This document shows, piece after piece, positions 10,393-26,035 of a stretch of DNA of 42,994 nucleotides. A program made the translations under genes and the position numbers. A model generated the notes under the pieces. It made no database searches, was not told the DNA's origin, and was given only the letters and a program-made list of their open reading frames with translations. Position 1 is the stretch's first letter. Every line of letters starts with the position of its first letter. The DNA is from Planctomycetota bacterium (GTDB lineage Bacteria > Planctomycetota > Phycisphaerae > Phycisphaerales > SM1A02): NCBI GenBank assembly GCA_022564665.1, contig JADFKZ010000006.1:1-42994 (forward strand), read 5' to 3'.

Positions 10393-12600
10393 ATGAGTAG
10401 CGTTCCCCCCAGCCCTGTCCCATTGCCGCAGCCGGCAGGCACCCGGCCGCGGTGGGCCGTCCCTTTCTCCGCTGCGCGGAACATCGATCCATTCCGCATC
10501 CTGCGGCGGCATATGGTGCTCATCATCGCATCGGCCTTCCTTGGCGTTTTCCTCGGGGTGGCGGCTTTCTTCCTCTTCAACCAGTTCTTGCCGATCTACA
10601 GCGGCGAGGTGCTCTTTGAGATCCGCGCCGCCCTGAGTGAATCAACTGATATTGCCTCCCGCGACATCACGCAGGATGACCTGGTGCTCCGACTTGCAAG
10701 AACAGAGGGCACGCTCATGGTCAGTCGCAGAATACTGGAGGCGGCCGTCAAGGAACCGGATATCCAGGCCACAACCTGGTTCAGGAAGGATTTCATCGCC
10801 GACGACGGATTTCCGTTGATCGACGAAGCGGTGGATGAGCTTGAGGAGGATGTTACCACGAGGCTGATCAGGGGAAGCAACCTGTTCGGCTTGAGGTGGT
10901 CCACGGGGGTGGCGGTCGATGTGCCGAGGGTGTTGAACACGATTGCCCGGAAGTACATCGCCAGCAGAGAGGAGTTTGACAGAGGGAAGTACAATACAAA
11001 TCTTGAGCTATTCAACTCGGAGCTCAACCAGACCAACCGCGAGCTCGACGACTTAGCCCAGAAGATCGGCTCGTTCATTCGCGAAAAGGGAATTACTTCC
11101 CTGGATGACCCGCGCTCCCACCAGCTCTCGCTGGCAATGGCAGAGGTGGTCGAGCGGATCGCGGAGGTAAACGCGGCGCTGAGCTATGGGCAGACCGCGT
11201 ATCAGCAGATGGCGGCGAAGCTCGATGGAACGGTAGAGCCATCGGACGAGGACCGCCGGCTGGCCATGCAGAATCCGACGATCCAGCCCCAGGAGTTGGC
11301 CATGCTCCAGAGCAAGACGTTCCTGCGGCAACTTCGCGGGCAGTACCGTGATCCAGGCCACTGGGGCATCCGGAAGGAACAAGACAAGCTCAACGCGATG
11401 GAGATCGAGTATGAGGTGAAGCTCCAGGAGATCATGAGCACCAGTCTTGAGGCACAGCTCAGGGAGATTGGCGATGGGCTCGAGGGCAGTCGTGCTGCCC
11501 TGGAGAATCTGGAGCAAGAGTATCAGGCAAACTCCGTGCTGCTGCAAACGCTCGCGGCGGACATGGCCCGTTTCCAGGAGATGGAAGAGCGGCAGGACCA
11601 CCTCGAGCAGATGCGACAATCCTATATCGAGCTGATCAAGGAGCTGCGACTCATGCGGCTGCGAGAGGACGCCTCGCGGATCGTCTTGGTCCAACGAGCG
11701 GAGACGCCGCGCGAGAAGTCCTTTCCTCGGCTGGAGAGCGTGCTCCCGTTGACGATCGTCATCGTAGTCGGCCTGGTCACGGGGCTTATCTTCCTCCGCG
11801 AGCTCACCGACCAGCGGGTCAAGACCGCCAGCGATCTGGAGGTCCTCCCCGGCGGCCGGGTGCTGGGGGTGATCCCCGAGCTTCTGGAGGACCCCTGCAA
11901 ATCGGAGGCGGCGGAACTCGTCGTCCGCAAGTGTCCTACGAGCGTATTGGCGGAATCGTACCGCCAGACGTGTGCGACAATCGACAGATTCAATGGCCCC
12001 CAAGGGCACCGGACGATGCTTATTGTCGGTGGTTTGCCGGGATCCGGCACCACGACCATCGCCACCAACCTTGCCGCCGCCGCGGCCGCCTCCGGGCGCA
12101 AGGTCGTCGTGGTCGACGCCAATTTCAGACGGCCGAGACTGAGCCAGGCTATGGGTCGCGCGGAAGACGGCCCCGGGCTCGGCGAGGTGCTCGGTGGCTC
12201 CGAGAAACTTGACGACGTCATTTGGGAGACGGAGTTCGCCGTCGACGTCATCGGCGCTGGTCGATCGGTCGACCGGGTCTTTGAGCGGTTGAGCAACAGC
12301 CGGTTCGACAACGTCATGGCCGACCTCCGCCGCCGATACGACCTGATCCTTGTCGATGCGCCGCCGGCGGTGGTCGCTGGCGATGCAATGGTCCTGGCGA
12401 CCAAGCTTGATGCGGCGATTCTTGTCATACGGGCGAGCCAGGAACAGCGTGGTCTGGTGGCCCGCCTGGTCAATGAGCTCTCCGAGGCGCACTGTGAGCT
12501 TCTGGGAATCATCCTGAACCGTCCCCGCGGCACGGTGGGTGGATATTTCAAGAAGAACTTCGCGGCGATGGCGCACTACGCCTCGGAATCGCCGGCTTGA
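10393..12600 (+). CDS. Wzc/GumC-like chain-length protein with a degenerate tyrosine-kinase domain
   Basis: This is a polysaccharide co-polymerase of the Wzc type: an N-terminal Wzz domain with membrane helices at about residues 43-63 and 447-467, a long periplasmic coiled-coil between, and a C-terminal cytoplasmic BY-kinase fold. The kinase-like domain has a Walker A' (VVVVDANFRRP, Asp575) and a Walker B (LILVDAPPAV, Asp655). The P-loop at 547-555 reads GLPGSGTTT: the lysine expected at position 553 is threonine. The C-terminal tail has only two tyrosines instead of a cluster. Autokinase activity is therefore doubtful, and the domain may be structural. Its stop overlaps the epimerase start (TTGA). 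The Wzb-like phosphatase at 15087 would normally act on such a kinase. Confidence 0.9.
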   Translation: MSSVPPSPVPLPQPAGTRPRWAVPFSAARNIDPFRILRRHMVLIIASAFLGVFLGVAAFFLFNQFLPIYSGEVLFEIRAALSESTDIASRDITQDDLVLRLARTEGTLMVSRRILEAAVKEPDIQATTWFRKDFIADDGFPLIDEAVDELEEDVTTRLIRGSNLFGLRWSTGVAVDVPRVLNTIARKYIASREEFDRGKYNTNLELFNSELNQTNRELDDLAQKIGSFIREKGITSLDDPRSHQLSLAMAEVVERIAEVNAALSYGQTAYQQMAAKLDGTVEPSDEDRRLAMQNPTIQPQELAMLQSKTFLRQLRGQYRDPGHWGIRKEQDKLNAMEIEYEVKLQEIMSTSLEAQLREIGDGLEGSRAALENLEQEYQANSVLLQTLAADMARFQEMEERQDHLEQMRQSYIELIKELRLMRLREDASRIVLVQRAETPREKSFPRLESVLPLTIVIVVGLVTGLIFLRELTDQRVKTASDLEVLPGGRVLGVIPELLEDPCKSEAAELVVRKCPTSVLAESYRQTCATIDRFNGPQGHRTMLIVGGLPGSGTTTIATNLAAAAAASGRKVVVVDANFRRPRLSQAMGRAEDGPGLGEVLGGSEKLDDVIWETEFAVDVIGAGRSVDRVFERLSNSRFDNVMADLRRRYDLILVDAPPAVVAGDAMVLATKLDAAILVIRASQEQRGLVARLVNELSEAHCELLGIILNRPRGTVGGYFKKNFAAMAHYASESPA

Positions 12601-13643
12601 CCGCGGTGCAAGCAGCCCGGCCTCTGCGCCGGGCATGGAGCGGTGAGCAGATTCCGTCAACATCCGACCAACGCGTTGCACTGGTCACCGGCGGGGCCGG
12701 CTTTATCGGTTCGCACCTGGTCGAGCATCTCGTTGGGCGCGGCGATCATGTCATTGTGATCGATGATCTGTCGACCGGTCGGCGATGCAACCTTCAGGAC
12801 GTCGATGAGACGCACATGACCTTCATCGAATCAAGCGTCGCTGAAGGGCTGCGCAGCCTGGAGCCAGGCAACATCGAGGAGATCTATCATTTGGCTGCGG
12901 CCGTCGGCGTCCGCCTGGTTATTCGCCGACCGATCGAGACGATCGAGACCAACGTGCTTGAGACATCCGCGGTGCTGGGCTTCGCCTCCAGGGGCCGAAT
13001 TCCCACCATGATCGCGTCAACCTCGGAAGTGTATGGCAAGACGACCCGAATCCCCTTCGCCGAGGACGACGATGTGGTGTACGGTCCGCCGCAGCAGGCC
13101 CGCTGGGCCTACGCGTGCTCAAAGGCGCTCGATGAATATCTCGCCCTGGCTCACCACCAACAGCATGCCCTTCCCGTAGTGGTCGTGCGGTTCTTCAACA
13201 TCGTCGGACCGCGGCAGGTCGGCGAGTACGGCATGGTGCTTCCTCGGTTTGTCGAGCGAGCGCTCGCGGGCGAGCCACTCGAGGTGCATGGCGACGGGCG
13301 GCAGACGCGGTGCTTTTGTGATGTACGCGACGTCGTCAGCGTCCTGCCGCAACTGGTTGGGACGCCGGATCATCGTGCCCGCGTGATGAACTTGGGAGGT
13401 GATCAGCTCATCGAGATTCGGGCGCTGGCGGAGCTGGTACGTGGCACGCTTCGAAGCGAGTCGCCCATCGTTTTCGTATCCTACGAACAGGCGTTTGGCG
13501 CTGATTTTGACGACCTCCGGTGCCGCCAACCAGACCTCACCCGCATTCGCGAAGCTACGGGATTCGTGCCCCGGACGCCCCTGGTTCAGACGATTCGCGA
13601 CCTGGCTGTTGCGCTGAGTGGCCGGCCGATGTCGGTGGAGTGA
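12597..13643 (+). CDS. NAD-dependent nucleotide-sugar epimerase/dehydratase (extended SDR)
   Basis: This is an extended short-chain dehydrogenase/reductase acting on nucleotide sugars. The Rossmann motif TGGAGFIG is at 31-38, IDDLSTG follows the second strand, and the catalytic residues are Ser142 region (STSEVYG), Tyr172 and Lys176 (YACSK). The NIVGPRQ segment and the HGDGRQTRCFCDVRDVV stretch are typical of UDP-glucose 4-epimerase and UDP-glucuronate decarboxylase relatives. Substrate cannot be told from sequence alone; UDP-glucose, UDP-GlcNAc and UDP-glucuronate are all possible. The start is a TTG overlapping the Wzc-like stop by four bases; a GTG at 12606 is the alternative. The first 20 residues lie before the fold and are not conserved in the family. 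Confidence 0.87.
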   Translation: MTAVQAARPLRRAWSGEQIPSTSDQRVALVTGGAGFIGSHLVEHLVGRGDHVIVIDDLSTGRRCNLQDVDETHMTFIESSVAEGLRSLEPGNIEEIYHLAAAVGVRLVIRRPIETIETNVLETSAVLGFASRGRIPTMIASTSEVYGKTTRIPFAEDDDVVYGPPQQARWAYACSKALDEYLALAHHQQHALPVVVVRFFNIVGPRQVGEYGMVLPRFVERALAGEPLEVHGDGRQTRCFCDVRDVVSVLPQLVGTPDHRARVMNLGGDQLIEIRALAELVRGTLRSESPIVFVSYEQAFGADFDDLRCRQPDLTRIREATGFVPRTPLVQTIRDLAVALSGRPMSVE

Positions 13644-13651
13644 ACGATCTG

Positions 13652-15031
13652 ATGTCGCCTACGGTCATTCCGAGACCAGCGAACGACGATCTCGCCCAGG
13701 CGCTCGAGCTAGTGAGTGACGCCAGTGAGCCCGCCGCGGCGTCGGCGGTCGACGTCCTGAACAGCTACGCCGTTGTCTTCATGGCAGCTTTCCTCGTCAC
13801 GCTCCTGTCTACACCGTTGGTCCGCTGGTTGGCTCTTGCCTGTAAGATCACGGACCGTCCCGACAGGATTCGCAAAGCGCATGCGTATCCCGTCCCGTAT
13901 CTCGGTGGCGTGGCTGTGTACCTCGGGCTCATGGCGGGCGTGGCGATCAGCTACCTGTACTTCGACCGCACGGCCAGTCACTTTCGGCAGATTCCCATGG
14001 CGGTCGTCGTTGGTATGGCGGCCATCATGTTCACCGGGTTGGCGGACGACGTGTGGGGGTTGGGCCCTCGGCTGAAGATCGCCGGTCAGCTCGTCGCCGC
14101 CGCAGCGCTGGCCATTGAAAACGTTGGGGTGCGGGTGGCTGCGGGGCTTGTCGAGCCCTTTGCGGATTTGCTGGATCCGCTGCTCGGCACGGAACACCTC
14201 GTGTATACCGCCCTCCCCACCCCGTGGGGAGACCTCGTCTATTGGATGGGTACCGCCCTGATCGCAATCTTTGTGCTGGGTGGTTGCAACGCAGCGAACC
14301 TGCTGGACGGTCTGGACGGCCTGCTCTCGGGTGTTGTGGGCATCGTTGTTGTCGGCCTGCTGGCCATCAGCGTGCTGATGGTCCTGCATCTGCCTCCCGA
14401 ATCGCCGCTGGGGGAGGAGCCGTTGGCCGGCGCGCGGATCGCACTGTGCCTGGCTCTGCTTGGCGCGGTGCTCGGGTTCCTGCCTCACAACTTCAATCCC
14501 GCCAGCATCTTCCTCGGCGATTGTGGGAGCCTGCTGCTGGGCTATCTGTGCGTCGTCATCATCCTCATGTTCGGTGAATATGGTCACACCCACCTCGTGT
14601 TTGCCGGGCTCATCATTTTCTCGGTGCCGATCATGGATACGACCCTGGCTATTATCCGGCGGTGGCTGGCAGGCTCGCCATTGTCCGTAGCCGATGATCA
14701 GCATATTCACCATCAGCTCAAACGGGCGCTCGGCGGCACCAAGCGCGCGGTCTTTGCCGTCTATGGAGTCAGTCTCGCCTTTGCGATTGTCGGCGTAACC
14801 CTCGCAGCACTGGTCATGTGGGCGCAGATTCGCATTCGCATCATCTATGCGATCGCTCTGGTCCTGTTCGGCTTTATCACCATGATCGCCGTCAAGACTG
14901 TGCGGCGCCAGCGGCACATCGCGATGGCTCAGGAGAAGGGGACGGTGTCAGCGCCGCCGGTGGTCGAGCCGCCACCGGGAGCGCCCGCTGCCGGCACAAC
15001 TCCCCCGAGGTCCGAGAGCCTCCGTCGCTAG
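13652..15031 (+). CDS. wecA: WecA/TagO-type undecaprenyl-phosphate GlcNAc-1-phosphate transferase
   Basis: This enzyme moves a sugar-1-phosphate (commonly GlcNAc-1-P) from a UDP-sugar to undecaprenyl phosphate, the first membrane step in making a lipid-linked polymer. About ten to eleven membrane helices are visible. Family motifs are present: KAHAYPVPYLGGVA near the first loop, LADDVWGLG with the catalytic Asp pair, NAANLLDGLDGL, FLGDCGSLLLGY, and HIHHQL in the last cytoplasmic loop, which marks WecA rather than MraY. The frame is open back to 13520, but that part lies inside the epimerase gene. I use ATG 13652; GTG 13640, overlapping the upstream stop (GTGA), is possible. The C-terminal 35 residues are Pro-rich and unlike the core family. 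It probably starts the polymer exported by the Wza/Wzc-like pair. Confidence 0.92.
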   Translation: MSPTVIPRPANDDLAQALELVSDASEPAAASAVDVLNSYAVVFMAAFLVTLLSTPLVRWLALACKITDRPDRIRKAHAYPVPYLGGVAVYLGLMAGVAISYLYFDRTASHFRQIPMAVVVGMAAIMFTGLADDVWGLGPRLKIAGQLVAAAALAIENVGVRVAAGLVEPFADLLDPLLGTEHLVYTALPTPWGDLVYWMGTALIAIFVLGGCNAANLLDGLDGLLSGVVGIVVVGLLAISVLMVLHLPPESPLGEEPLAGARIALCLALLGAVLGFLPHNFNPASIFLGDCGSLLLGYLCVVIILMFGEYGHTHLVFAGLIIFSVPIMDTTLAIIRRWLAGSPLSVADDQHIHHQLKRALGGTKRAVFAVYGVSLAFAIVGVTLAALVMWAQIRIRIIYAIALVLFGFITMIAVKTVRRQRHIAMAQEKGTVSAPPVVEPPPGAPAAGTTPPRSESLRR

Positions 15032-15086
15032 GCCATCCTGCGCCCGCAGCTTGCCATCGGCGTGTCGTTTGTGGACAATCGGCGGC

Positions 15087-15569
15087 ATGACGGTGTCCGA
15101 CGGCACGATCGGTGTTCTGTTTGTCTGTATGGGCAATATCTGCCGCAGCCCGCTGGCGGAAGGCCTCTTCCTGGCCAGGGCCGCGCAGAGGGGTGTCGCC
15201 CACCGCTTTGAGGTCGACTCCGCGGGGACGGGTGCCTGGCACGTCGGCGAGCAGCCTGACGCACGCGTCAGGGAGGTCGCCGCCCGCCACAACATCATCC
15301 TTGCGGGTCGTGCCCGGCAGGTCTCCCGCGACGACTTCGATCGTTTTGACCACATCATCTGCATGGATGAGGACAATCGCGATCGGCTTGCCCGCCGAGG
15401 CGCGCCGGAGAGCAACCTCCGCCTGCTGCTGGAGTTCGATCCGACGGCTGGGACCCGCGAGGTGCCCGACCCCTACTTCGGTGGATCGCAGGGCTTTGAG
15501 ATCATCTACGAGCTGATCGATTCCGCTTGCCGAGCGCTGTTGGAGAGCCTGCTCGCGGGTCGGCCATGA
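15087..15569 (+). CDS. Low-molecular-weight protein tyrosine phosphatase (Wzb-like)
   Basis: This is a small cytoplasmic phosphatase of the LMW-PTP/Wzb/ArsC-like fold. The P-loop CX5R-S is CMGNICRS (Cys14, Arg20), and the general acid lies in the VPDPYFGG loop (Asp128). In capsule loci such enzymes dephosphorylate the Wzc-type tyrosine kinase. ATG 15087 gives 160 aa, the normal family length; the frame extends to another ATG at 15051 with 12 extra non-conserved residues. It overlaps the next gene by four bases (ATGA). Keeping an intact phosphatase next to a Wzc-like protein without its P-loop lysine is unexpected (see findings). Confidence 0.93.
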   Translation: MTVSDGTIGVLFVCMGNICRSPLAEGLFLARAAQRGVAHRFEVDSAGTGAWHVGEQPDARVREVAARHNIILAGRARQVSRDDFDRFDHIICMDEDNRDRLARRGAPESNLRLLLEFDPTAGTREVPDPYFGGSQGFEIIYELIDSACRALLESLLAGRP

Positions 15570-16468
15570 GCCTTCCGGCCGCGATCGAATACGCTCTTTG
15601 CGAGGTGGGCATCGCTGGTCGGGTTGCAACCATGAGCCCTCTGACGGGCGGGTGCATTCATCGGGTCGACGAGATCACGCTGGACGATGGCACGACGCTG
15701 GTTGTCAAGAGCAACACCGCCGACCATCTGGGGTTGTTCCGGGAGGAGGCGGCTTCCCTGCGTGTCCTGGAGCGTACGGGCACGGTCCTGGTGCCGGTGC
15801 CGCTGGCGGTGGTCGGCCGCGGCGGCGTTGCGGTTCTGTTGATGAGGGCCATCCGATCCGGCCGGGGCACGCCGGAGGCCTGGCAACGGCTCGGTCGCGA
15901 TCTCGCCGCGCTGCACTTGGACAATCCCGATCCGCCGCCGGCGGGGTATGGTTTTTCAGTCGACAATCATCTCGGCACGACACTCCAGCCCAACGCCTGG
16001 TGCGATGACTGGGTGCGCTTCAATGCCGAGAACCGCCTCGGTCACCAGCTGGAGCTGGCCCGCCGCCGGGACCGGCTTCAGTCCTCCGAGGCCGCCGGCG
16101 TCCAGCGGGTGATCGCGAAGCTCGGGATGCTGATCCCCGCGGCGCCCAAGCCGGCGCTGATACACGGAGACCTGTGGTCGGGCAATGCCATCGCCGCGGT
16201 CGATGGGCGCGGGGCCGAGCGGATCGCCCTGATCGACCCGGCCTGCTCCATCGGGGACGGGTGGGCGGACATCGCCATGATGAGGCTCTTCGGCGGGTTT
16301 CCACCCGATTGCTTCACCGCCTACGCGTCCATGATTGATGACCACGATCGCCTCGAAAGCCGGATCGCGGTTTACCAGCTCTACCACGTCCTCAACCATG
16401 TCAACCTGTTCGGGCACGGGTATGTGGAAAAGGCGATGGGACTGGTCAATCGCCTGGTGGGTGAATAG
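15566..16468 (+). CDS. Fructosamine kinase family protein (aminoglycoside-phosphotransferase fold)
   Basis: Fructosamine-3-kinase-related proteins phosphorylate sugar adducts on lysines (ketosamines and ribulosamines) so that the adduct falls off, a protein-deglycation repair. The 300-aa protein shows SPLTGGCIHRVDEITLDDG in the nucleotide-binding lobe, VVKSN with the ATP lysine, the catalytic loop HGDLWSGN, and LIDPACSIGDGWADIAMM holding the metal-binding Asp of the family (usually DPA...GHREADLAM). It starts at ATG 15566 inside the phosphatase stop codon, so translation is coupled; the upstream ATG at 15527 lies within the phosphatase gene. Why it is last in a polysaccharide operon is not known; it could act on a sugar in the polymer pathway. 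Confidence 0.88.
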   Translation: MSLPAAIEYALCEVGIAGRVATMSPLTGGCIHRVDEITLDDGTTLVVKSNTADHLGLFREEAASLRVLERTGTVLVPVPLAVVGRGGVAVLLMRAIRSGRGTPEAWQRLGRDLAALHLDNPDPPPAGYGFSVDNHLGTTLQPNAWCDDWVRFNAENRLGHQLELARRRDRLQSSEAAGVQRVIAKLGMLIPAAPKPALIHGDLWSGNAIAAVDGRGAERIALIDPACSIGDGWADIAMMRLFGGFPPDCFTAYASMIDDHDRLESRIAVYQLYHVLNHVNLFGHGYVEKAMGLVNRLVGE

Positions 16469-16598: not shown

Positions 16599-17738
16599 CT
16601 AGCTATTCTTCTTTGCAAAATCCTTCATGAGCGCCGCAAGCGCTTCGCATCCGGCGCGCGGAAAGGCGTTGTAGATCGAGGCACGCATGCCGCCCACAGA
16701 GCGGTGCCCCTTCAGGCCCTCCATCCCCAGCTGTCTGGCTTGAGTGACAAACTTCTCATCGAGATCGTCGCTTGGTGTGCGAAAGGTCAGGTTCATCATG
16801 GATCGCGAATCGGAGCGGGCCATGCCGCGATAGAACGTCGTCCCGACGCCTAGCGCCGAGTCGATCACGTCGTAGATGATCCTGGCCTTTTCCCTGTTGC
16901 GGCGAGCCATCACCTCGAGGCCTCCCTGGCGTTCGATCCACTTGAAGACCTCGCCCATGAAGTAGATGCCGAAGACCGGTGCCGTGTTCAGACGCGAGCC
17001 TTGTGCCGCATGCTGGCGGTAGTCGAGCATCGACGGTAGCTGGTCCCTGGCACCGCGCAGGAAATCCTTGGAGACGATGACGAGGGTGCAACCGGCGGGG
17101 CCCAGGTTCTTCTGGGCACCGGCGAAAACCAACGCGTAGCGGGCCACGTCAATCGGCCGGCTCAAGATATCAGAGCTGGCGTCGCAGACGAGCGGCGCAT
17201 CGGTGGCAGGGGGCTCGGAGTATTCGGTACCGACGATTGTGTTGTTGGAGCAAAAGTAGACGTAGGCGGCGTCGCGGCTCAAGCTCAGCTCATGCGCCGC
17301 CGGGATATGGTCGTACCCTCTTTTGCCGCCGTCAAAGGCGATGTTGAGGCTTCCAAGAAGTCTTGCCTCCTTGATTGCCTTGCTCGTCCAGCTTCCGGTG
17401 TCGAGGTAATCGGCGACCTTCCCCGCGGGCAGGAAATTCATCGGCACCATGGCGAACTGGAGCGTGGCTCCGCCTTGAAGAAAGAGCACGTGATAGTCGT
17501 CGGAAATGCCGGCGACCCGCCGACAGGCCGCCTCGGCCTCTTCGATGATGCGGGTAAAGAGTGAGCCGCGGTGGCTGTGCTCGAGGATGCCGATCCCGGT
17601 GCCGGCGATATTGAAGATATCACTTTGCGCCTGGCGGAGCACCTCCTCTGGAAGCGTGGCCGGCCCAGCGGAGAAGTTGAAGATTCGTTCGCCGGTGCGA
17701 TCCCTGTCGGTCGGAGTCGTGGTCGTGGTCGTGGTCAT
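16599..17738 (-). CDS. serC: Phosphoserine aminotransferase
   Basis: SerC converts 3-phosphohydroxypyruvate and glutamate to O-phosphoserine and 2-oxoglutarate in serine synthesis; it also serves pyridoxine synthesis in some bacteria. It is a class-V, PLP-dependent aminotransferase. The N-terminal FNFSAGPATLP signature is at 20-30, the PLP Asp is in CDASSD (Asp186), and the Schiff-base lysine is Lys210 in GAQKNLGPAG. The substrate-binding GHRSVGGMRASIYNA lies near the end. Length (379 aa) is normal. The first eight codons give a run of threonines from a repeated ACCACG word, probably unimportant. It follows serA by 12 bases on the same strand, so the two are one operon. No serB is present. 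Confidence 0.96.
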   Translation of the reverse strand: MTTTTTTTPTDRDRTGERIFNFSAGPATLPEEVLRQAQSDIFNIAGTGIGILEHSHRGSLFTRIIEEAEAACRRVAGISDDYHVLFLQGGATLQFAMVPMNFLPAGKVADYLDTGSWTSKAIKEARLLGSLNIAFDGGKRGYDHIPAAHELSLSRDAAYVYFCSNNTIVGTEYSEPPATDAPLVCDASSDILSRPIDVARYALVFAGAQKNLGPAGCTLVIVSKDFLRGARDQLPSMLDYRQHAAQGSRLNTAPVFGIYFMGEVFKWIERQGGLEVMARRNREKARIIYDVIDSALGVGTTFYRGMARSDSRSMMNLTFRTPSDDLDEKFVTQARQLGMEGLKGHRSVGGMRASIYNAFPRAGCEALAALMKDFAKKNS

Positions 17739-17750
17739 GAGAACCCGCTC

Positions 17751-19034
17751 TTAATCACTTTGACCGACGCGCCGCAGGCTTACGCTCATGACATCATCGT
17801 TGGCTCGTATGGCGCTGAGCTGTTCGGCGCTGGGGCATTGGTCCAGCTGAATGCGAGCGCAGGCCGCCTTGGCACCATGATAGATCGTATTCTGCATCTC
17901 CTGGACGTTGATGCCGCCCTGGCCGAGCGTGTAGAAAATGTGGGCCAGGACTCCAGGGTGATTCAGGTGCCTGACCGTCAGGAGATTCGTGGCGCTGGTG
18001 GAGGCCGCCCGGTTGACGCAGTTGAGGACCTCGCCCGTCTTCTGGTAGTTCTCGATGATTCGCAGGACCTCGGCGGCGATCGCAAGTTGGGCCTGGGCCG
18101 TCGAGGCGCCGATGTGGTGGGTTCCGTAGACGCCCGGCTCCCGGATGATGGGATCGGTCGCCTGGCCCGTGGAACTACCCGGCTCCGTCGAGAAGACGTC
18201 GAGCCCTGCGCGAACACCCTTCTCGCGGATCGCCCGGGTCAGTGCCTCTTCATCCACGACTGATCCGCGGCTGGTGTTTATCAGGTACGCGCCGGGTCGC
18301 AGCGCGGCACAAAACTTTTGGCCGATGAGCCCCTTTGTCTCGCCCGTCGCCGCAACGTGGACGGATACGACGTCTGAGAGCTTGGCGAGGTTCACGAGGT
18401 TGGCACAATAGCCGACGCCAAGCTCATCGGCCTTCACCTCGTCGAGGCTGCGTGACCAGGCGATGACACGCATGCCGAACGCCTTGCCGCGCCGTGCCAC
18501 CTCCCGGCCGATCCGTCCGAGCCCCACGATGCCCAGGGTGCGATTGCAAAGACCGGTGGACGTGGAGTACTCCTTCTTGTTCCATGTGCCGGCGCGGAGA
18601 TCGGCGGTCTGGTCGGGCACGCGCCGGTCGCAGCACAGAATCAGCGCCCAGGTGAGTTCGGCCACGGCGATCGAGTTCTTGCCTGGGCAGTTAGCGACGA
18701 AGATACCCTTGGCAGAGGCGGCCTCGACATCGATCGTGTCAAAACCCGCTCCTGCCCGAGTGATCAGGCTCAATTTGCGTGCCACTTCCACCGCTTTTGC
18801 CTGCACCTTCGTTGACCGCACGATGAGCACATCCGGATCGTGCTTGATGATCGCGGCGGGGAGCGTGTCGGCGGTCAGGTCGGGATCGAAGTGGACGTCA
18901 CAACCCAGCGATTGGAGCCCGTCGAGGCCCACTTGCTCGAACTTGTCGGCGATCAGCGCCGTCATACCGGTCGTGGCCCGTGCTTGGGATTGATCGGCGG
19001 TGCGGGGAGACGCTGAGGGCGGGCTCGTCATCAT
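17751..19034 (-). CDS. serA: D-3-phosphoglycerate dehydrogenase with ACT domain
   Basis: SerA oxidises 3-phosphoglycerate with NAD, the first step of serine synthesis. It belongs to the D-2-hydroxyacid dehydrogenase family. The NAD motif GLGRIG is at 171-176; the catalytic residues are Arg256 (NTSRG), Glu284 (FSTEP) and His307 (HHIGAST). Residues 352-424 form a C-terminal ACT domain (HPGVLAHIFYTLGQGGINVQEM), suggesting feedback by serine. It lacks the extra domain of long SerA forms. The first 23 residues are unstructured; Met24 (MTALIADKF) is a plausible alternative start. The upstream 176 bases before DUF1015 hold dispersed repeats, so it may have its own promoter or be read from the DUF1015 gene. 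Confidence 0.95.
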   Translation of the reverse strand: MMTSPPSASPRTADQSQARATTGMTALIADKFEQVGLDGLQSLGCDVHFDPDLTADTLPAAIIKHDPDVLIVRSTKVQAKAVEVARKLSLITRAGAGFDTIDVEAASAKGIFVANCPGKNSIAVAELTWALILCCDRRVPDQTADLRAGTWNKKEYSTSTGLCNRTLGIVGLGRIGREVARRGKAFGMRVIAWSRSLDEVKADELGVGYCANLVNLAKLSDVVSVHVAATGETKGLIGQKFCAALRPGAYLINTSRGSVVDEEALTRAIREKGVRAGLDVFSTEPGSSTGQATDPIIREPGVYGTHHIGASTAQAQLAIAAEVLRIIENYQKTGEVLNCVNRAASTSATNLLTVRHLNHPGVLAHIFYTLGQGGINVQEMQNTIYHGAKAACARIQLDQCPSAEQLSAIRANDDVMSVSLRRVGQSD

Positions 19035-19079
19035 ACCGATAGTGTACCGCGCCTATTGGGGGCCTGCTATCGGCCGAGG

Positions 19080-19175
19080 CGGAAGGCTGTCGGCTATCAG
19101 ACGGGAGGGAAGGCTGTCCAAAAAAGGGCTGTCGTCCGGAACGGAGCTGGAGGAGTTTTCTTGCCGATAGCCGAG
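19080..19175. repeat. Dispersed intergenic repeat between serA and DUF1015
   Basis: GGCTGTCGGCTATCAG at the left end faces TTGCCGATAGCCGAGAG at the right end, an imperfect inverted repeat about 95 bp long with another GGCTGTC copy near 19125. A similar arrangement is at 20952-21017. Both lie between genes and neither contains an ORF. Confidence 0.5.
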
Positions 19176-19210
19176 AGCGAACAGTAGACCGCCGGCATAC
19201 ACAGCCGGGC

Positions 19211-20527
19211 CTACCTGTCTTCAATTGAATGTACGAACAGTCCGCTCAGAAGCTTCGGCTCGAACCAGGTCGATTTGGGCGGCATGACCAGCCCGGCATC
19301 GGCCACGCTGAGCAACTGGTCGATCGACGTGGGGTACACCGCGAACGCCACGGCGGCCTGGCCGGAGTTCACCCGGCGTTGAAGCTCCTGCGTTCCCTTC
19401 ATGCCGCCGACAAACTCGATCCGAGGATCGCTCCGAGGGTCGGTGACCCCCAGTATCGGTCCCAGCACCCGGTTCTGGAGCAAGGCGACATCAAGCGAGC
19501 CCAACGCATCATCGGTCTCGGTCGCGCCGTCCTGAGCGAGCTGGAGGCGGTGCCACGCCCCCGGCAGGTAGACGCAGAAGACGCTTGGTCGGTCGGGTCG
19601 CGGATCAGTGGTGCGGCTGAGTCTGCCGACGCGGGCAAGCTTGGATAGAAACTCCCCCTGAGTCTGGCCTCCCAGGTCCTTGATGAGTCGGTGATAGGGC
19701 AGGATCGTGACCTGGCCTGTGGGGAAAAGCGCAGCCAGAAACCAGTTGTACTCTTCGCCACCGGTGTGATGGGGGTTGGACTTGCGCCGCTCGAGCCCCG
19801 CCCGCAGGGCGCTTGCCGCGCGATGGTGCCCGTCGGCGACGTAGACAGCTTCGGTGGCGGCAAAGATCTCGCAGTAGCGGTCGGGATCCCTGGCGGTCCA
19901 GACGGTGTGGGTGACGCCGTCGGGGGCATCGAAGTGGTACAGAGGCCGGGCGTTGAGGTCCTGCTGAACGATGGGATCGATTTCCGGCCGGTCGCGGAAG
20001 GTGAGGAATACCGCGCCCGTCTGCGCGCCGACCGCCTGCATGAGCCGGGTCCGATCGTCCTCCTTGTCGGGTCGGGTCTTCTCGTGCCTTCTGATCACGT
20101 TGTTGGCGTAGTCGTCGATGTGGCAGCAACAGACGAGCCCCGTCTGGCTGCCGCCGTCCATGACGAGCCGGTAGAGATACATCTTCGGCGTCGCCTCGCG
20201 GAGAAGGATTCCCTCATTCAGCAGGCGGTTGAAGTTCTCCCTGGCCTTCTCGTATACCGCCGTGTCGTAGGGGTCGATGTCGTTGATCAGATCGATCTCT
20301 GCCCGTATGACGTGCAGAAAGCTCTCGGCGTTTCCGGCCGCGAGCCGTCGGGCCTCCTCGGCGGTGACGACGTCATAGGGCGGGCAGACGACGCGGGTGG
20401 CGACGTTTGGACGTGGCCGGATGGCGGCAAATGGTCTCAGACGTACCAAGCGGGGTTTCGCTCCCGATTTCAAGCCGGTACAGCGGGGGGAGAGTCTACC
20501 CCCGGGTACCGGTGTGTGCGCCTTCAT
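19211..20527 (-). CDS. DUF1015 family protein of the serine operon
   Basis: This is a DUF1015 protein (438 aa from the ATG at 20527). The family start RPFAAIRPRP, the VVCPPYDVVTAEEA motif, HEKTRPDKEDDRT and the signature YVADGHHRAASAL are all visible. DUF1015 has no agreed function. It is often next to serA and serC, as here (DUF1015, serA, serC in order on one strand). The DGHHR motif resembles the active-site motif of the ParB-like free-serine kinases SerK and SbnI, so a role in phosphoserine/serine metabolism is a reasonable guess. The frame continues to a GTG at 20575, but that part is not conserved and would abut the PilZ start. Confidence 0.88.
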   Translation of the reverse strand: MKAHTPVPGGRLSPRCTGLKSGAKPRLVRLRPFAAIRPRPNVATRVVCPPYDVVTAEEARRLAAGNAESFLHVIRAEIDLINDIDPYDTAVYEKARENFNRLLNEGILLREATPKMYLYRLVMDGGSQTGLVCCCHIDDYANNVIRRHEKTRPDKEDDRTRLMQAVGAQTGAVFLTFRDRPEIDPIVQQDLNARPLYHFDAPDGVTHTVWTARDPDRYCEIFAATEAVYVADGHHRAASALRAGLERRKSNPHHTGGEEYNWFLAALFPTGQVTILPYHRLIKDLGGQTQGEFLSKLARVGRLSRTTDPRPDRPSVFCVYLPGAWHRLQLAQDGATETDDALGSLDVALLQNRVLGPILGVTDPRSDPRIEFVGGMKGTQELQRRVNSGQAAVAFAVYPTSIDQLLSVADAGLVMPPKSTWFEPKLLSGLFVHSIEDR

Positions 20528-20575: not shown

Positions 20576-20902
20576 ATGCCATCTGAGACACTGGACGAGG
20601 ATGCTGTGGCACCGCTGCGATTCGAGCGCCGAACGTGTGACCGGTGGCCGCTGGCCGGCGTGGCCACGGCGTGTCGGCTTGGGGGAGAACGGTTCGGCGA
20701 GACAACTGCGCTGAAGATGCTTGACTACTCCGAGGAGGGGCTCGGCGCGATCTGCCGGAGCCCCATCGAGCCCGGGGCGATCATCTCTGTGGTGTTCCGA
20801 GCGCCTGGTCAGCCCTCAAGGCAGGGCGTCGTGCTGCGGTGCCTACCCTGCGGTGACGGGTATCGCGTTGCCATCCGCTTCGAGCGGCGCTGGGCTGCAT
20901 AG
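20576..20902 (+). CDS. PilZ-domain protein (c-di-GMP receptor candidate)
   Basis: This 108-aa protein is a single PilZ domain. The c-di-GMP-binding residues are seen as RxxxR in RTCDR (near residues 19-23) and as DxSxxG in DYSEEG (near 50-55), followed by the usual beta-strand pattern ending in VAIRFERR. Both motifs are intact, so ligand binding is likely. It is divergent from the DUF1015 gene and ahead of the pilus block, separated from the first pilin by 712 bases of repeats, so it is probably its own unit. No clear ribosome-binding site precedes the ATG. Confidence 0.8.
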   Translation: MPSETLDEDAVAPLRFERRTCDRWPLAGVATACRLGGERFGETTALKMLDYSEEGLGAICRSPIEPGAIISVVFRAPGQPSRQGVVLRCLPCGDGYRVAIRFERRWAA

Positions 20903-21175: not shown

Positions 21176-21580
21176 AAGGGCGGCAAGGATGCCGCGAGGT
21201 CGCTGCGCAGCGCTCGAAGCAGTTCTTGTCGCACGATCAGCCGTCGATTCTCGCGCACGTGAGACTTGTCAAGATGTGGCGTCTACGAGGTCGCGGGGCC
21301 TGGCAAATGGCCCCTCGCCATCCACATTGGTTTGACAAGGATCGGTCCGAATCGTGCACTTTTCCTGGCGACCGGCGCTGGCCCCTGCGTGATGGCCTTG
21401 ACACGCGCAGCGGCGGGCCGCGGTCGTCTGACGTCGGTGCGGCCGTCGGAGCCGCTCCGACATTTCGGTGTGCCGGGCTCAATGTGGGCGCGGCCCCGGA
21501 GGTTTGAATGAAACGGCTGTGGTCATCTTCCGGCCGCAGTCCTCAGCAATATGTGGAGGGGTTCTCTGGAGAATTGTCTG

Positions 21581-21594
21581 CGAGAGATCTCTCG
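21581..21594. promoter_or_regulatory. 14-bp perfect palindrome upstream of the pseudopilin
   Basis: CGAGAGATCTCTCG is fully self-complementary and ends six bases before the Shine-Dalgarno sequence of the GspG-like gene. A second inverted repeat, TTCTC-TG-GAGAA, lies at 21562-21573. Both could be operator sites or the base of a leader-RNA hairpin. Confidence 0.35.
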
Positions 21595-21600
21595 ACTATC

Positions 21601-21606
21601 AAGGAG
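21601..21606 (+). promoter_or_regulatory. Shine-Dalgarno site fixing the GspG-like start
   Basis: AAGGAG lies eight bases before ATG 21615. The frame is open further upstream (to 21468), but this strong site places the true start so that the prepilin leader is short and basic. Confidence 0.8.
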
Positions 21607-21614
21607 CGCCTTAC

Positions 21615-22070
21615 ATGCGAACTCATTTAAGAAAGCGGATGCGCCGGGCATTCACGCTGATCGAAATTCTGATCGTCGTGGTGATCCTGGGCATCCTCGC
21701 TGCCATCGTCATCCCGCAGTTCACCGATGCCTCGCAGGAGGCGATGCGAAGCAGCCTGCTCACCCAGCTGCAGACCATCCGCAGCCAGGTCGAGCTGCAC
21801 AACGTGCAGAATCCGACCACGCTCTTCGACCCGATGAACCCGCCTGTGGCCGGCGAGCCGTGGAGCGCCCTGGTGAACAACAACTATCTGCAGTCTCCAC
21901 CGAAGAACCCCTTTACGCCGTCGGCCAACGACGACACCGATGTGGCGACCGCCCCCGCGGATGGCGGCGCCTGGGTCTGGTCGAACTTCAACGGCTGGGG
22001 CACCACCATCTACGCCGTGAATGTGGACGGCGAATATCTTGACGTCGACGGCGACGGCAAGGCTGACTGA
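21615..22070 (+). CDS. GspG-like major pseudopilin
   Basis: This is a type II secretion / type IV pilus major (pseudo)pilin, 151 aa. A short basic leader (MRTHLRKRMRRA) precedes the class III signal FTLIEILIVVVILGILAA. The prepilin peptidase would cut between Ala12 and Phe13; the usual -1 Gly is Ala, and Glu at mature position 5 is present. The C-terminus carries YLDVDGDGKAD, a Ca-binding-type DxDxDG loop; GspG proteins use a C-terminal calcium site for stability. AAGGAG precedes the ATG, and a strong terminator follows 36 bases after the stop. It is therefore probably transcribed on its own at a high level, before the rest of the cluster. Confidence 0.9.
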   Translation: MRTHLRKRMRRAFTLIEILIVVVILGILAAIVIPQFTDASQEAMRSSLLTQLQTIRSQVELHNVQNPTTLFDPMNPPVAGEPWSALVNNNYLQSPPKNPFTPSANDDTDVATAPADGGAWVWSNFNGWGTTIYAVNVDGEYLDVDGDGKAD

Positions 22071-22106
22071 TGGCGGAGATCTCTGAAACGGTCTGCCGAT
22101 AAAGAC

Positions 22107-22136
22107 ACGCCGGCGTGGAAACACGCCGGCGTTTTC
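22107..22136 (+). terminator. Intrinsic terminator after the GspG-like gene
   Basis: ACGCCGGCGTG-GAAA-CACGCCGGCGT forms 11 perfect GC-rich pairs with a GAAA tetraloop, followed by TTTCTTC. It separates the major pseudopilin from the minor pilin genes; some read-through is likely. Confidence 0.85.
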
Positions 22137-22199
22137 TTCATTTCTGAGGGCTGATCGCCGAAAGGCCGATGAGCGAAACAAGAACGCTGGAAGGGGTCC

Positions 22200-22904
22200 A
22201 TGAACTGGTCGAGGCTCGATGACGGCACCCGATGTCGACGGCGGGGGGAAACGCTCGGTGGGCTCCTCCTGACGCTGTCGATCATCGGCGCGCTGGGGGT
22301 GACCGCTGCGGTGGTCGCGCCACGGTACCTTGTGGGGGCGGTGGCAGGTCATCCGCCGGATGCCGCGGATGGTGGAGATCTGATCAAGGCCCGCAACCCC
22401 ATGCACGGGGAGCTGATCGACGCCCTGACGCGATTGATCGCCCGCAGCGTCGGCATTCTGGCGATTCACCACCGCGGTCCCGGTCCGTACCTGGAGCTGG
22501 TCCTATGGCTCGATGACGACATCAACCCGGGCCGGCCCGATGCCCACGAGCTTGCCCTCCTCAGCCACAGCAGGATCCTGCAGACCCTCACCCTGTACCG
22601 CAGGCCCTCCGGGACACCATCGAAACGGGGGGGCGGCGTGGGGCTCTGGGCCTCCGGAGATTCCGCCACCGACCCGTCATTCTGCGGGCGCTGGCGGGCC
22701 GACTCCGGCGTGAGGGCGCTGGTCCTGATGAGAGGCGTATCGGACATGCGGGTCGAGCCGGTCGCGAGCCCGCATGCATCGTTGCAGCGGCTCCGCATCC
22801 AGCTTAGCTGGGCCGCGGATTCGGTCGATGGTGCTGATGAGGCGTCGGCGATGGTCGACACGGTGATGTTCCCGTCGGCAGATCGCCCGGTCGGGAGCTC
22901 CTGA
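22200..22904 (+). CDS. Divergent minor pseudopilin-like protein
   Basis: This is a 234-aa protein beginning with a basic stretch and a pilin-like helix, RRRGETLGGLLLTLSIIGAL. Cleavage after Gly16 would leave Glu at position 1 and Gly at position 5, instead of the usual Phe1 and Glu5. The T-L residues at +2/+3 and the hydrophobic run are kept. The rest (a GPYLELVLWLDDD strand and a poly-Gly turn near residue 145) matches no family I can name. It is preceded by GGAAGGGG close to the ATG and overlaps the next frame as TGATG. The position between two clear pseudopilins makes a minor pseudopilin the best guess, but it may not be processed or assembled like the others. Confidence 0.6.
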   Translation: MNWSRLDDGTRCRRRGETLGGLLLTLSIIGALGVTAAVVAPRYLVGAVAGHPPDAADGGDLIKARNPMHGELIDALTRLIARSVGILAIHHRGPGPYLELVLWLDDDINPGRPDAHELALLSHSRILQTLTLYRRPSGTPSKRGGGVGLWASGDSATDPSFCGRWRADSGVRALVLMRGVSDMRVEPVASPHASLQRLRIQLSWAADSVDGADEASAMVDTVMFPSADRPVGSS

Positions 22905-23011
22905 TGCGGTCAGGATCCACACACAGACCTTGGAGGCGTCCAAAACGCTGCTCGGAAGGGCCGCGTCCGGTCCGACAACGGCCGCATGCGTGGCTCTCAA
23001 GGGAGTCACCA

Positions 23012-23590
23012 ATGCCTGCTCATTCGCGTATGCGTGCTGTTCGCCGGAGTTACACGCTCATCGAGCTGATCATCGTAATGGTCGTCCTTGCCCTGGCGGC
23101 TGCTCTGCTGGTGCCGCACCTGGTGGGACCGGACCTGCTGAAGGCCCAGGCTGCGGTTCGCTTGATCATCGCCGACCTGAGCTATGCCCAGGCCGACGCC
23201 CTGGCCAATCAGGAGTATCGGCGTGTTCACTTCTACCCGGACGGACGGGGATACTGTCTGGTACGTATCACCTCGACCGAGCTGGCGCAACCCTTTGATC
23301 CTCTGACTGCGGAATACCTCGTCGATCCACTCGGGGCGCTGCGGGACTACATCGTTGACTTCACCATTGACAATCGCTTCAAGGGCGTTGCCATTGAGGC
23401 GACGTCGACGATCGACACCGTTTCCATCATTCCCGACGGAACGGACATTACCTACGACGCGCTGGGCGGGACGATCAGGAGCGATGGGAACGCGGGCACG
23501 GGCGGAGTGATCGTTGTTTTCTTTGACGACGAGCGTTATGAGATCGCGATCTCGGGGTTCACAGGCAAGCTGACGGTGAAGAAGCTCTAG
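23012..23590 (+). CDS. GspH-like minor pseudopilin
   Basis: This is a minor pseudopilin, 192 aa. The leader MPAHSRMRAVRRS is followed by YTLIELIIVMVVLALAAALL, with Glu at mature position 5. The residue before the cut is Ser, where Gly is usual. Downstream ARLIIADLSYAQADALANQE-like residues and the later beta-rich part, including VIVVFFDDERYEIAISGFTG, resemble GspH/FimT. The frame is open to 22904 (TGATG with the previous gene), but AAGGGAG six bases before ATG 23012 and the normal leader length favour that start. Confidence 0.85.
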   Translation: MPAHSRMRAVRRSYTLIELIIVMVVLALAAALLVPHLVGPDLLKAQAAVRLIIADLSYAQADALANQEYRRVHFYPDGRGYCLVRITSTELAQPFDPLTAEYLVDPLGALRDYIVDFTIDNRFKGVAIEATSTIDTVSIIPDGTDITYDALGGTIRSDGNAGTGGVIVVFFDDERYEIAISGFTGKLTVKKL

Positions 23591-23647
23591 GGTCAATCGC
23601 AGCGCTGCGCATTTGGCGCACCGCGACCGTGTCGGGGAGGACTACGC

Positions 23648-24799
23648 GTGATCGCAGGGCGATTCTCACCGTCGATTGGATTGGTCGGCGTCGACTTCGG
23701 CACCCGCTCGATCAAGCTCCTGCAGCTTCGCCAGCACGGCCACCAACCACAAGCCGTGGGGGCGGCAAGCCTCGACATCCAGCGGACTCCAAGCACCCCC
23801 GAAGAGCGCGCGAGTTTGACCGAGCAGTTGCGGGGAGCGTTTTCCGTTGGAGGGTTCACGGGCCGGCGCTGCGTGGTCAGCCTGCCCCGTGGCGATGTCC
23901 GCGTGCAGTCGGTCCGGCTCCCGAAGATGCCCGACGAGGAGCTTCGGCAGGCTGCCGTCTGGGAGGCCGCGCAGCGATTCGGGTTCGAGCGGGCCTCCAT
24001 GGAGGTGGATGTCATCCGGACCGGTGCGGAGATGCATGGGAGCGAAGACCGCCAGGAGGTTCTCCTGATCGCCGCATCCCATGACACGATAAACGCCTGG
24101 ATCGAGCCGCTGTTGGCCGCAGGTCTTCGGCCCGTAGCGATCGAGACCCACTTCATGGCGCAGGCCAGGGTGTTCGGCCAACGGGAGATCCCCGGCATGA
24201 CGCCACCGGTACGTGCGGTTGTTGACGTCGGAGCCTCAGGGTCCACCGTCATGATCCTCCGCGGCGACGAGATTTCCTTTTGCAAGCCGATCGCCTTTGG
24301 AGGAGAGCAACTGGACCAGGCGGTCGCCGAGCACCTTCAAATGGAGCGTGCGGCGGCACGGGAGCTGCGGGCCGCCCGGATCGCCGCCGCCAGTCGCGGG
24401 TCCAGTGCCCAGTCGATCACCGACTCCTCGATCGATCGGGCAGTCTACAACGCGGTGCGACCTCTCTTCGGCAGCTTTGCCAAAGAGGTGATGCTTTGCA
24501 TCAGCTACTACGGCGTCGCGTTTCGCGGGCACCCGCCGAAGGAGCTGATCCTCACCGGCGGCGACGGCCTGGAGCCCAGGCTCCCGGAGACGCTGGCCTT
24601 GCAGTGTCAGGTCTCGGTGGTGTTCGACGAGGACGCCTCGCCGATCTGCGCGTTGACACGCAGCATCCAGGCAATCCTCCACCGCCCTTCAGGTCCAGCG
24701 GCATGGTGGACGGTGGCGGCCGGCCTCAGCCTCCGCGGCCTCTCGAAGCGCGGGCTGGCACGTATGCGGTTGCCGTCATCCGGCCGGGAGGCGGCATGA
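23648..24799 (+). CDS. pilM: PilM-like actin-fold ATPase of the pilus platform
   Basis: PilM is a cytoplasmic actin-like protein that binds the N-terminus of PilN and links the inner-membrane platform to the assembly ATPases. The 383-aa protein has the family opening GLVGVDFGTRSIKLLQL (phosphate-1 motif), VSLPRGDVRVQSVRLPKMP, the VVDVGASGSTVMILRG phosphate-2 motif and ELILTGGDGL (adenosine motif). The start is GTG with GGAGGA seven bases upstream. It overlaps pilN by four bases (ATGA). The gene order pilM, pilN, pilO, pilP-like, secretin is that of type IV pili; the pseudopilins before it are more T2SS-like, so the system is a mixture. Confidence 0.9.
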   Translation: MIAGRFSPSIGLVGVDFGTRSIKLLQLRQHGHQPQAVGAASLDIQRTPSTPEERASLTEQLRGAFSVGGFTGRRCVVSLPRGDVRVQSVRLPKMPDEELRQAAVWEAAQRFGFERASMEVDVIRTGAEMHGSEDRQEVLLIAASHDTINAWIEPLLAAGLRPVAIETHFMAQARVFGQREIPGMTPPVRAVVDVGASGSTVMILRGDEISFCKPIAFGGEQLDQAVAEHLQMERAAARELRAARIAAASRGSSAQSITDSSIDRAVYNAVRPLFGSFAKEVMLCISYYGVAFRGHPPKELILTGGDGLEPRLPETLALQCQVSVVFDEDASPICALTRSIQAILHRPSGPAAWWTVAAGLSLRGLSKRGLARMRLPSSGREAA

Positions 24800-25476
24800 G
24801 TCAACCGCCGATCGACCTGCTGCCCGAATCGATCCGTGCCCGCAGCCTGGCCGCGGTGGTGGCGGGGCGCTACATCGCGGCTCTGCTGATCGCGAGCGTG
24901 TTGCTGCTGGTTCCCGCGACGCACTCTCGGCTCCAGCTCGAATCGGCTCGCGACCGCATGCGGGCGGCGGAGGAGCAGGCGGATCTTGTGTTGACGGCGG
25001 AGGCCAAGGCGAGCCAGCTCCGCGACGAGCTCCGGGAGACTCGCGTCTTCATTGACCGTTACCAGCATCTGGCAATGCCCATTCCCATGAGCCGCCTCAT
25101 CGCCACGATTACCAATGAGCTGCCGCCCAGCGTGACCCTCGATCGGATCGATCTGAATGCGGCTGGTCGCAACGCACAAGGAGCGGTTCGACGGCGCGGG
25201 TTGAGTGATGGCGCTGAGTCACCCCAGCGAATCCTCATCGGTGAGCTGAGCGGCTTTGCCGCATCGGACCGGGACGTCGCCGACCTCGTGGCAAGGCTGG
25301 AGAGCCTCGGTCTCTGCCGGGAGGTCAGACTTAATTTCAGCCGCACGCGGAACATTCGTGGCCGCAGCGCGCGGGAGTTCCGCGTCAGTTTCCGCATCGA
25401 TCTGGATAAGGCCTACGAGGTTGTCGACCGCGAACCTGCGCGGGCAAGTATGAGCAAGACGCGCCATGTCCAGTAG
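24796..25476 (+). CDS. pilN: PilN-like inner-membrane protein
   Basis: This 226-aa protein has the PilN N-terminal motif INLLP as IDLLPESIR (residues 6-14), used to bind PilM, then one membrane helix (about 25-42), a coiled-coil (45-80) and a ferredoxin-like periplasmic domain (about 95-215) with LPPSVTLDRIDLN and a GFAASDRDVADLVARL helix. The start ATG lies within the pilM stop codon. Its end overlaps pilO by 11 bases. Confidence 0.87.
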   Translation: MSQPPIDLLPESIRARSLAAVVAGRYIAALLIASVLLLVPATHSRLQLESARDRMRAAEEQADLVLTAEAKASQLRDELRETRVFIDRYQHLAMPIPMSRLIATITNELPPSVTLDRIDLNAAGRNAQGAVRRRGLSDGAESPQRILIGELSGFAASDRDVADLVARLESLGLCREVRLNFSRTRNIRGRSAREFRVSFRIDLDKAYEVVDREPARASMSKTRHVQ

Positions 25477-26035
25477 GAAACATCTCGTGATCGCCGTCGT
25501 CGGCCTTATCGCGGTGGCGACGGTGGGGAGCCTGATGCTGGTGTGGCCGGTCTATCGAAAAGCGGCGATCGTCGACCGGCGAAGCTCTGAGTTGCTGGCC
25601 AAGTGCAGGAACTACAGCGATCAGGCGGACGAGATCGTCCGGCTTCGCGCTGATCTGGAGGCGGCCAGGGAATTCGTACAACGGGAGCTCAAAACCGTTC
25701 CCGAGTCACCGGACATAGCGGGACTGATGCGTGTCCTGTCGCTTCCCGTGGATGGCGTGAATATCCGTGACCAGACGTTCACGGCGGGTCAGTCCAAGCG
25801 GGCCTCCGCGGATCCCGATATCACGACGCTGGCGATGCCGTTGACGGTTGACATGGAGGCTCGATTCGAAGTCGTCTTTTCACTGATTCAGGCGGTGGAG
25901 TCGATGGACCGTCTCCTGCGGATCGCCTCCGTGAGTATGCGGTGCGAGAAGTCCGATCAGGACGTTCCGTTCGCCAAGGCGTCGGTCGTCCTCGAAGCGA
26001 TCTACTCTCCTCCTGCAAGCGAGGAGGCGCCCTGA
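25466..26035 (+). CDS. pilO: PilO-like inner-membrane protein
   Basis: This 189-aa protein has one N-terminal membrane helix (about residues 7-29), a coiled-coil (30-75) and a C-terminal ferredoxin-like fold, the plan of PilO. PilO pairs with PilN in the periplasm. In the fold, LTVDMEARFEVVFSLIQAVE matches the typical PilO strand-helix region. The assignment rests mainly on architecture and position between pilN and the PilP-like gene. Confidence 0.82.
   Translation: MSSRKHLVIAVVGLIAVATVGSLMLVWPVYRKAAIVDRRSSELLAKCRNYSDQADEIVRLRADLEAAREFVQRELKTVPESPDIAGLMRVLSLPVDGVNIRDQTFTAGQSKRASADPDITTLAMPLTVDMEARFEVVFSLIQAVESMDRLLRIASVSMRCEKSDQDVPFAKASVVLEAIYSPPASEEAP

Follow-up and report, generated by a model that had tools for sequence, protein, structure and literature searches.

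The window, which is the whole 42,994-nucleotide stretch analysed here (contig JADFKZ010000006.1 of a Planctomycetota bacterium), carries on its minus strand a gene of the DUF1015 family followed by two genes of serine biosynthesis, in the order DUF1015, serA and serC. The DUF1015 gene (19211..20449, minus strand) encodes 412 amino acids when read from a TTG codon at 20449 and matches PF06245 at 331.7 bits against a gathering cut-off of 25.8; the closest named relatives of its product, from metagenome-assembled genomes (MAGs) of Phycisphaerales, are 55-62% identical to it. The serA gene (17751..19034, minus strand) encodes a D-3-phosphoglycerate dehydrogenase-like protein of 427 amino acids, a 2-hydroxyacid dehydrogenase with PF02826 and PF00389 domains, whose TIGR01327 score of 304 bits lies below the cut-off of 454 and covers model positions 3-316 of 525. 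The serC gene (16599..17738, minus strand) encodes a phosphoserine aminotransferase of 379 amino acids, which scores 455.1 bits with TIGR01364 (cut-off 443.6) and 471 bits with NF003764. An earlier interpretation of this locus, hereafter the sequence-only reading, had placed DUF1015 first in an operon and started it at ATG 20527. The gene order is borne out, with 12 bp between serA and serC; given the 176 bp between DUF1015 and serA, a single transcript for all three genes is presumed. In-frame starts lie at ATG 20527 and GTG 20575 on the minus strand, yet TTG 20449 appears more likely than ATG 20527, because the N terminus M-VRLRPF then equals the M-LRINPF of relatives in length; a GGGAG lies 11 bases upstream of this TTG. 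The claim that no phosphatase stands behind serA and serC also held up, as the genes 3' of serC, a convergent fructosamine-kinase-like gene and a low-molecular-weight protein tyrosine phosphatase-like gene, belong to other families, and no SerB was found among the genes downstream of serC in the window.

The sequence-only reading had further likened a DGHHR motif in the DUF1015 protein to that of free-serine kinases, and the predicted fold, which is that of SerK and SbnI, suggests that this likeness reflects a true relationship. An AlphaFold2 model built from an alignment of the window protein with 14 relatives (A1, 15 sequences) comprises 411 residues with a mean pLDDT of 89.4 and a pTM of 0.85. 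Comparison of the model with 350,542 Protein Data Bank (PDB) chains using Foldseek returned nine matches at E<=1e-3, every one of which is SerK (5x0b, 5x0e, 5x0g, 5x0j, 5x0k and Pyrococcus 1vk1) or SbnI (5uje, 6nr6 and 5ujd), with E values from 1e-7 to 8e-7; the tenth match is unrelated (E 0.039), and structures of ParB, Noc and sulfiredoxin were absent from the matches at E<=1e-3. VIA-align 2 gave Z scores of 11.6-12.9 for the nine, with 212-225 residues aligned in chains of 232-254, and the next row had a Z score of 2.4, so that nothing else in the PDB is comparable. The root-mean-square deviation (rmsd) between the model and SerK or SbnI is large (4.3-6.3 A), which may result from domain movement and inserted loops.

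Profile comparison also reaches this distant kinship. A phmmer search with the single DUF1015 sequence found no match in the PDB at E<=1. When 49 diverse DUF1015 proteins were combined in a profile (A2, in which PF06245 matches 49/49 members) and this was compared with 177,635 PDB sequences, it retrieved 1vk1 (E 6.9e-5) and three SerK variants (E 0.0029) and nothing else below E 1. The score derives mainly from the C-terminal part, where PPKST faces SPKTT, and DGHHR is aligned too. Hidden Markov model (HMM) comparison of A2 with SerK placed residues 340-394 on SerK 173-224 with a probability of 95%, and in local mode the DGHHR part was weakly aligned and the HE part unaligned. The Pfam DUF1015 match ends at residue 320 of 411, which leaves out the C-terminal part and may explain why Pfam does not record the SerK kinship. 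A Pfam scan of the protein found no DNA-binding domain. Taken together, the model and the profiles indicate that DUF1015 very probably belongs to the SerK/SbnI superfamily, in which it would form a large divergent branch that combines a predicted ParB-like nucleotide-binding fold and a SerK-type C-terminal domain with about 85 additional N-terminal residues.

Three motifs can be placed along this fold. The window DUF1015 contains YVADGHHRAASAL, and its DGHHR motif (residues 205-209; 19820..19834, minus strand) aligns with SerK DGHHR 69-73; the pattern DG[HN][HN]R occurs in 87/87 DUF1015 sequences. The HE motif (H121-E122 of the 411-residue model; 20081..20086, minus strand) is the proposed equivalent of SerK H29-E30, which is based on motif and on the order of secondary structure, this part being absent from the profile alignment. 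E122 is invariant in A1 and in 30/30 type I sequences (window-like, as defined below) and is present in 98% of 56 type II sequences, and its proposed SerK counterpart, E30, is the residue mutated in the deposited E30A and E30Q structures 5x0e and 5x0j. The C-terminal PKST motif (residues 390-393; 19268..19279, minus strand), which lies beyond the end of the Pfam match, is the counterpart of SerK PKTT 220-223. Conservation over the 30 type I and 56 type II sequences is highest at Y24-D25, H121-E122, R132, D205-G-H-H-R209, R253, K391, T393, F395, P397 and K398.

We also looked for a phosphoserine phosphatase elsewhere in the window's genome (G000; 3.06 Mb in 226 contigs, 91.3% complete), as the sequence-only reading had proposed, and found no serB in this assembly: the best TIGR00338 match scores 18.5 bits against a cut-off of 144.15. 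Candidates for a hidden phosphatase comprise two HAD proteins, a partial match in a 777-amino-acid frame and three PF00300 proteins. The two HAD proteins (about 240 amino acids; PF12710 at 40 and 25 bits) resemble phosphoglycolate phosphatases by eye rather than a typical SerB, and the three PF00300 proteins, likewise judged by eye, do not appear SerB-typical. The best histidine-phosphatase match lacks the catalytic RHG, with KCG in its place. We note that a histidine-phosphatase-family protein at 1468-2094 (plus strand) of locus L127 (G000:C200), in which RHG is replaced by KCG, is likely inactive, and that a shorter frame of this kind lies in L128 (G000:C101).

The distribution of serB was then compared with that of DUF1015 in 118 genomes of the window's phylum, sampled at a requested completeness of >=90%, of which 76 encode DUF1015. 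Proteins scoring >=290 bits with the window protein in phmmer were designated type I, that is, window-like, and all others scored <=150 bits; this bimodal distribution divides the sample into 17 type I genomes (the window's included), 59 type II genomes and 42 without DUF1015. Three loci without a phmmer match (L086, L102 and L123) were counted as type II, and G092 and G097 each have a second DUF1015 match that was left out of type scoring. A family tree groups the window sequence and the 30 sequences like it (31 in all) with low support (0.38), and a node of 35 has 0.955, so type I denotes a score class rather than a proven clade. Since TIGR00338 is strict, its cut-off being exceeded in 6/118 genomes, we scored as serB-like any match of >=65 bits over >=170 positions. 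By this rule, serB-like genes occur in 1/17 type I and 14/59 type II genomes versus 28/42 genomes without DUF1015 (Fisher's test, kinship ignored: type I versus none, p 2.3e-5; type II versus none, p 3.1e-5). A second sample of 115 genomes, from the phylum of the kiritimatiellal genome G125, gave 2/84 type I genomes versus 11/31 others, one of which has a weak DUF1015 (p 6.3e-6, kinship again ignored). Fragmented assemblies are common among the genomes compared. No serB exceeded the cut-off in the genomes of the 14 relatives, and G118, a single-contig chromosome of 3.9 Mb, has DUF1015-serA-serC and a best serB match of 28.2 bits. Families f11, f17 and f43 each contain members with type I DUF1015 and no serB beside others with serB and no DUF1015.

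Gene neighbourhood points in the same direction. In searches for serA and serC homologues, which cover the first sample only, type I DUF1015 lies <=5 kb from one of them in at least 13 of the 17 genomes (G000, G006, G009, G011, G014, G030, G031, G033, G049, G051, G067, G085 and G094; SerA of G030 counted from stretch L109), where chance would give 0.17/17. Type II DUF1015 is near serA or serC by phmmer in at least 8/59 genomes (G016, G042, G104, G073, G010, G046, G058 and G002) and near a weak SerC-like aminotransferase in three more (G095, G084 and G004). Among the loci of the 14 relatives, serA stands alongside in four (L005, L006, L007 and L018), with serC as well in three of them, and the three genes are contiguous in a Gemmatimonadales MAG (L018). 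At least 13 of the 28 genomes that have a serB-like gene and no DUF1015 carry that gene <=3 kb from serA on the same strand (G022, G026, G039, G050, G055, G061, G068, G074, G076, G080, G096, G112 and G116). Thus, serB beside serA occupies the slot that DUF1015 holds in many DUF1015 genomes.

The retention of serA and serC where serB is lost is best explained by a role of DUF1015 in converting phosphoserine to serine. DUF1015 likely acts on serine or phosphoserine, and it is probably a divergent SerK/SbnI-type serine/phosphoserine phosphotransferase that serves as a stand-in for SerB; we also lean toward the view that it replaces SerB in this genome. The sequence-only reading had left open whether DUF1015 would supply or regulate the last step, and the neighbourhood and the exclusion of serB in two phyla favour the first part, as a prediction. 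In the mechanism that we propose, SerA and SerC would make O-phosphoserine, DUF1015 would bind it in a SerK-like pocket, and the phosphate would pass to ADP, AMP, phosphate or water with release of serine, by which SerB's job would be done. Fold, motifs, neighbourhood and exclusion are computed, whereas we infer that the protein binds serine or phosphoserine and is catalytically active, which way the net flux runs (to serine) and what the phosphate partner is.

Several observations weigh against this proposal. The strongest doubt concerns the direction of the reaction. With ADP as acceptor, dephosphorylation of phosphoserine is thermodynamically uphill; since a nucleotide is unfavourable in this way, phosphate or water in that role, or a strong serine sink, would help. 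The two genes also coexist: of three DUF1015-bearing controls, Bacteroides ihuae and Methanosarcina acetivorans carry serB over the cut-off as well (the third, Thermotoga maritima, has DUF1015 and no serB over the cut-off), which indicates that replacement of serB is not universal, and the 14 type II genomes with serB-like genes suggest that type II may hold other functions. As for neighbourhood, four of the 17 type I genomes (G003, G019, G021 and G038) were not seen to have DUF1015 near serA or serC among the matches listed; in G003 the gene is at a contig edge, and G021 lacks serA and serC by these searches. Neither gene was found in the flanks, some of them short, of ten verrucomicrobial, kiritimatiellal and opitutal loci (L008-L017), and no serine genes were present among the nine neighbour genes examined in L010, L012, L014 and L015 or the one in L018. 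We take COG4198 to be the DUF1015 family. Glycine riboswitches are reported upstream of COG4198 and serC genes in metagenomes (PMC2211319), those before COG4198 genes in presumed Firmicutes, which speaks for the proposal; an Rfam search of the window and 33 related loci found no glycine riboswitch. Finally, SerK itself is described as a kinase that uses ADP, and neither ATP nor PPi, to phosphorylate serine, in a host that also has a SerB homolog (PMC5120207). Apart from these points, 14/42 DUF1015-less genomes lack a serB-like gene by the rule used, although G015, G098, G063 and G047 have shorter or weaker matches, so another route from phosphoserine to serine, or auxotrophy, must exist.

A bolder version of the proposal, which we entertain tentatively, is that DUF1015 enzymes run the serine-kinase reaction in reverse and so routinely complete serine synthesis in many bacteria, with the phosphate saved and not wasted as it is by SerB. 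Candidate reactions would be phosphoserine + Pi -> serine + PPi (EC 2.7.1.80) or phosphoserine + ADP/AMP -> serine + ATP/ADP. We know of no gene for the diphosphate-serine phosphotransferase EC 2.7.1.80.

The alternative that survives best, although we consider it unlikely, is that DUF1015 is a true kinase that converts serine to phosphoserine, either for assimilation of serine to 3-phosphoglycerate or for cysteine synthesis, as in Thermococcus and Desulfurococcales; under this reading, DUF1015 would be rare alongside serB because the pair would form a futile cycle. Both SerK, according to its description (PMC5120207), and SbnI, whose PDB molecule name is 'O-phospho-L-serine synthase', run from serine to phosphoserine, and the description of SerK states that serK of Desulfurococcales adjoins 3-phosphoglycerate dehydrogenase and aminotransferase genes, which is read there as an assimilation route. 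The window's genome has no cysE match at E<=1e-10, so its cysteine could come from phosphoserine. However, a cysE-like match at E<=1e-10 is present in 16/25 type I genomes, G118 included (1/25 over the curated cut-off), which suggests that phosphoserine is probably unneeded for cysteine there and makes a cysteine-only role of DUF1015 less likely. A kinase would furthermore leave genomes that have serA and serC, and neither serB nor another assigned step, without a way to serine, and the frequency of DUF1015 where serB is missing (82/84 type I genomes in the second phylum have no serB-like gene) hints at a housekeeping function in biosynthesis.

It is less probable still that DUF1015 is a regulator that senses nucleotides or phosphoserine, a catalytically idle ParB-fold switch, with serine made by another phosphatase. 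ParB-fold proteins can act as switches. One 'DU1015' protein figures in a set of 50 ParB-fold proteins selected to be tested for nucleotide binding, and the parts of the main text that we draw on do not list it with those that bound (PMC12704722); the window's genome does encode HAD and histidine-phosphatase proteins. Against this, the HE and DGHHR motifs and the lysine and threonine of the C-terminal motif are kept across types I and II, which suggests catalysis; the HAD and histidine-phosphatase proteins have the features for which they were set aside above; and an anticorrelation with serB is unexpected for a regulator. That the association is incidental, with DUF1015 unrelated and serB missed through divergence or assembly gaps, would fit the incomplete, fragmented assembly of the window's genome and the strictness of TIGR00338 but is very improbable, since weak serB homologs were counted too, the pattern recurs in both phyla sampled and in the single-contig G118, and neighbourhood far exceeds chance.

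The lack of a phosphoserine phosphatase is a recognised problem: 450 genomes in a gut survey have serA and serC and none of four known SerB types (PMC9026213), and the survey leaves them unexplained. If DUF1015 acts as a stand-in for SerB, a widespread family of unknown function would gain a role, predictions of auxotrophy would change for many genomes, and a kinase fold would be doing the job of a phosphatase. Our searches of a set of open-licence papers brought up none linking DUF1015 with SerK or serB; the closed literature may have one.

Other features were observed in the window and in related loci. A small PilZ-domain protein (20576-20902, plus strand; 25.8 bits), a possible c-di-GMP receptor, is encoded divergently from DUF1015, and pilin-like (N_methyl), PilM and PilO genes follow at 21468-26035 (plus strand), which may specify a type IV pilus or a type II secretion-like system. 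An exopolysaccharide-type cluster at 10393-16468 (plus strand) includes an NAD-dependent epimerase, a family 4 glycosyltransferase, a low-molecular-weight phosphatase and a Wzz/tyrosine-kinase-like protein, named by eye (Pfam finds only a P-loop domain); the fructosamine-kinase-like gene that converges with serC comes after this cluster. At 42937-42994 (plus strand), the window ends within a group II intron, of which it holds the 5' part (RF02001, 42.7 bits). Among type II loci, L025 has a SAM riboswitch (2890-3011, plus strand; 88 bits) directly downstream of its DUF1015 gene. One genome of family f36 encodes two type II paralogues (G090:C1:1971428 and 2432451; L059 and L064), and serB-like genes also occur in the listed f36 members except G053, which hints at a second function of type II.

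Compared with known systems, DUF1015 is closest to SerK and SbnI. With SerK of Thermococcus kodakarensis (TK0378, 5x0b) and Pyrococcus furiosus (1vk1), it shares nearly the whole SerK fold (VIA Z 12.0-12.9 for 5x0k, 5x0g, 5x0b and 1vk1), the DGHHR and PK(S/T)T motifs, which follow the proposed HE counterpart in the order seen in SerK, and, in some SerK hosts, 3-phosphoglycerate dehydrogenase and aminotransferase neighbours. At 13% identity, it differs in its N-terminal extension, in a greater spacing of HE and DGHHR and in that it is found mostly where serB is absent, whereas the SerK host has a SerB homolog. SbnI of staphylococci (5uje, 5ujd and 6nr6) gives the best Foldseek E value (9.7e-8) and the lowest rmsd (4.3-4.9 A), with Z scores of 11.6-11.7. 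SbnI is ATP-dependent and part of siderophore synthesis, whereas DUF1015 sits in serine operons. The ParB-CTPase fold proteins ParB, Noc and sulfiredoxin have in common with SerK a core nucleotide-binding fold. Known replacements of SerB are, in the gut genome survey, of a histidine-phosphatase type or of other HAD types (PMC9026213). With SerB of the HAD superfamily (TIGR00338), DUF1015 would share the step that we propose, and it shares the place beside serA in related genomes; its fold is different, and it would be an enzyme of the phosphotransferase type rather than a HAD or histidine phosphatase.

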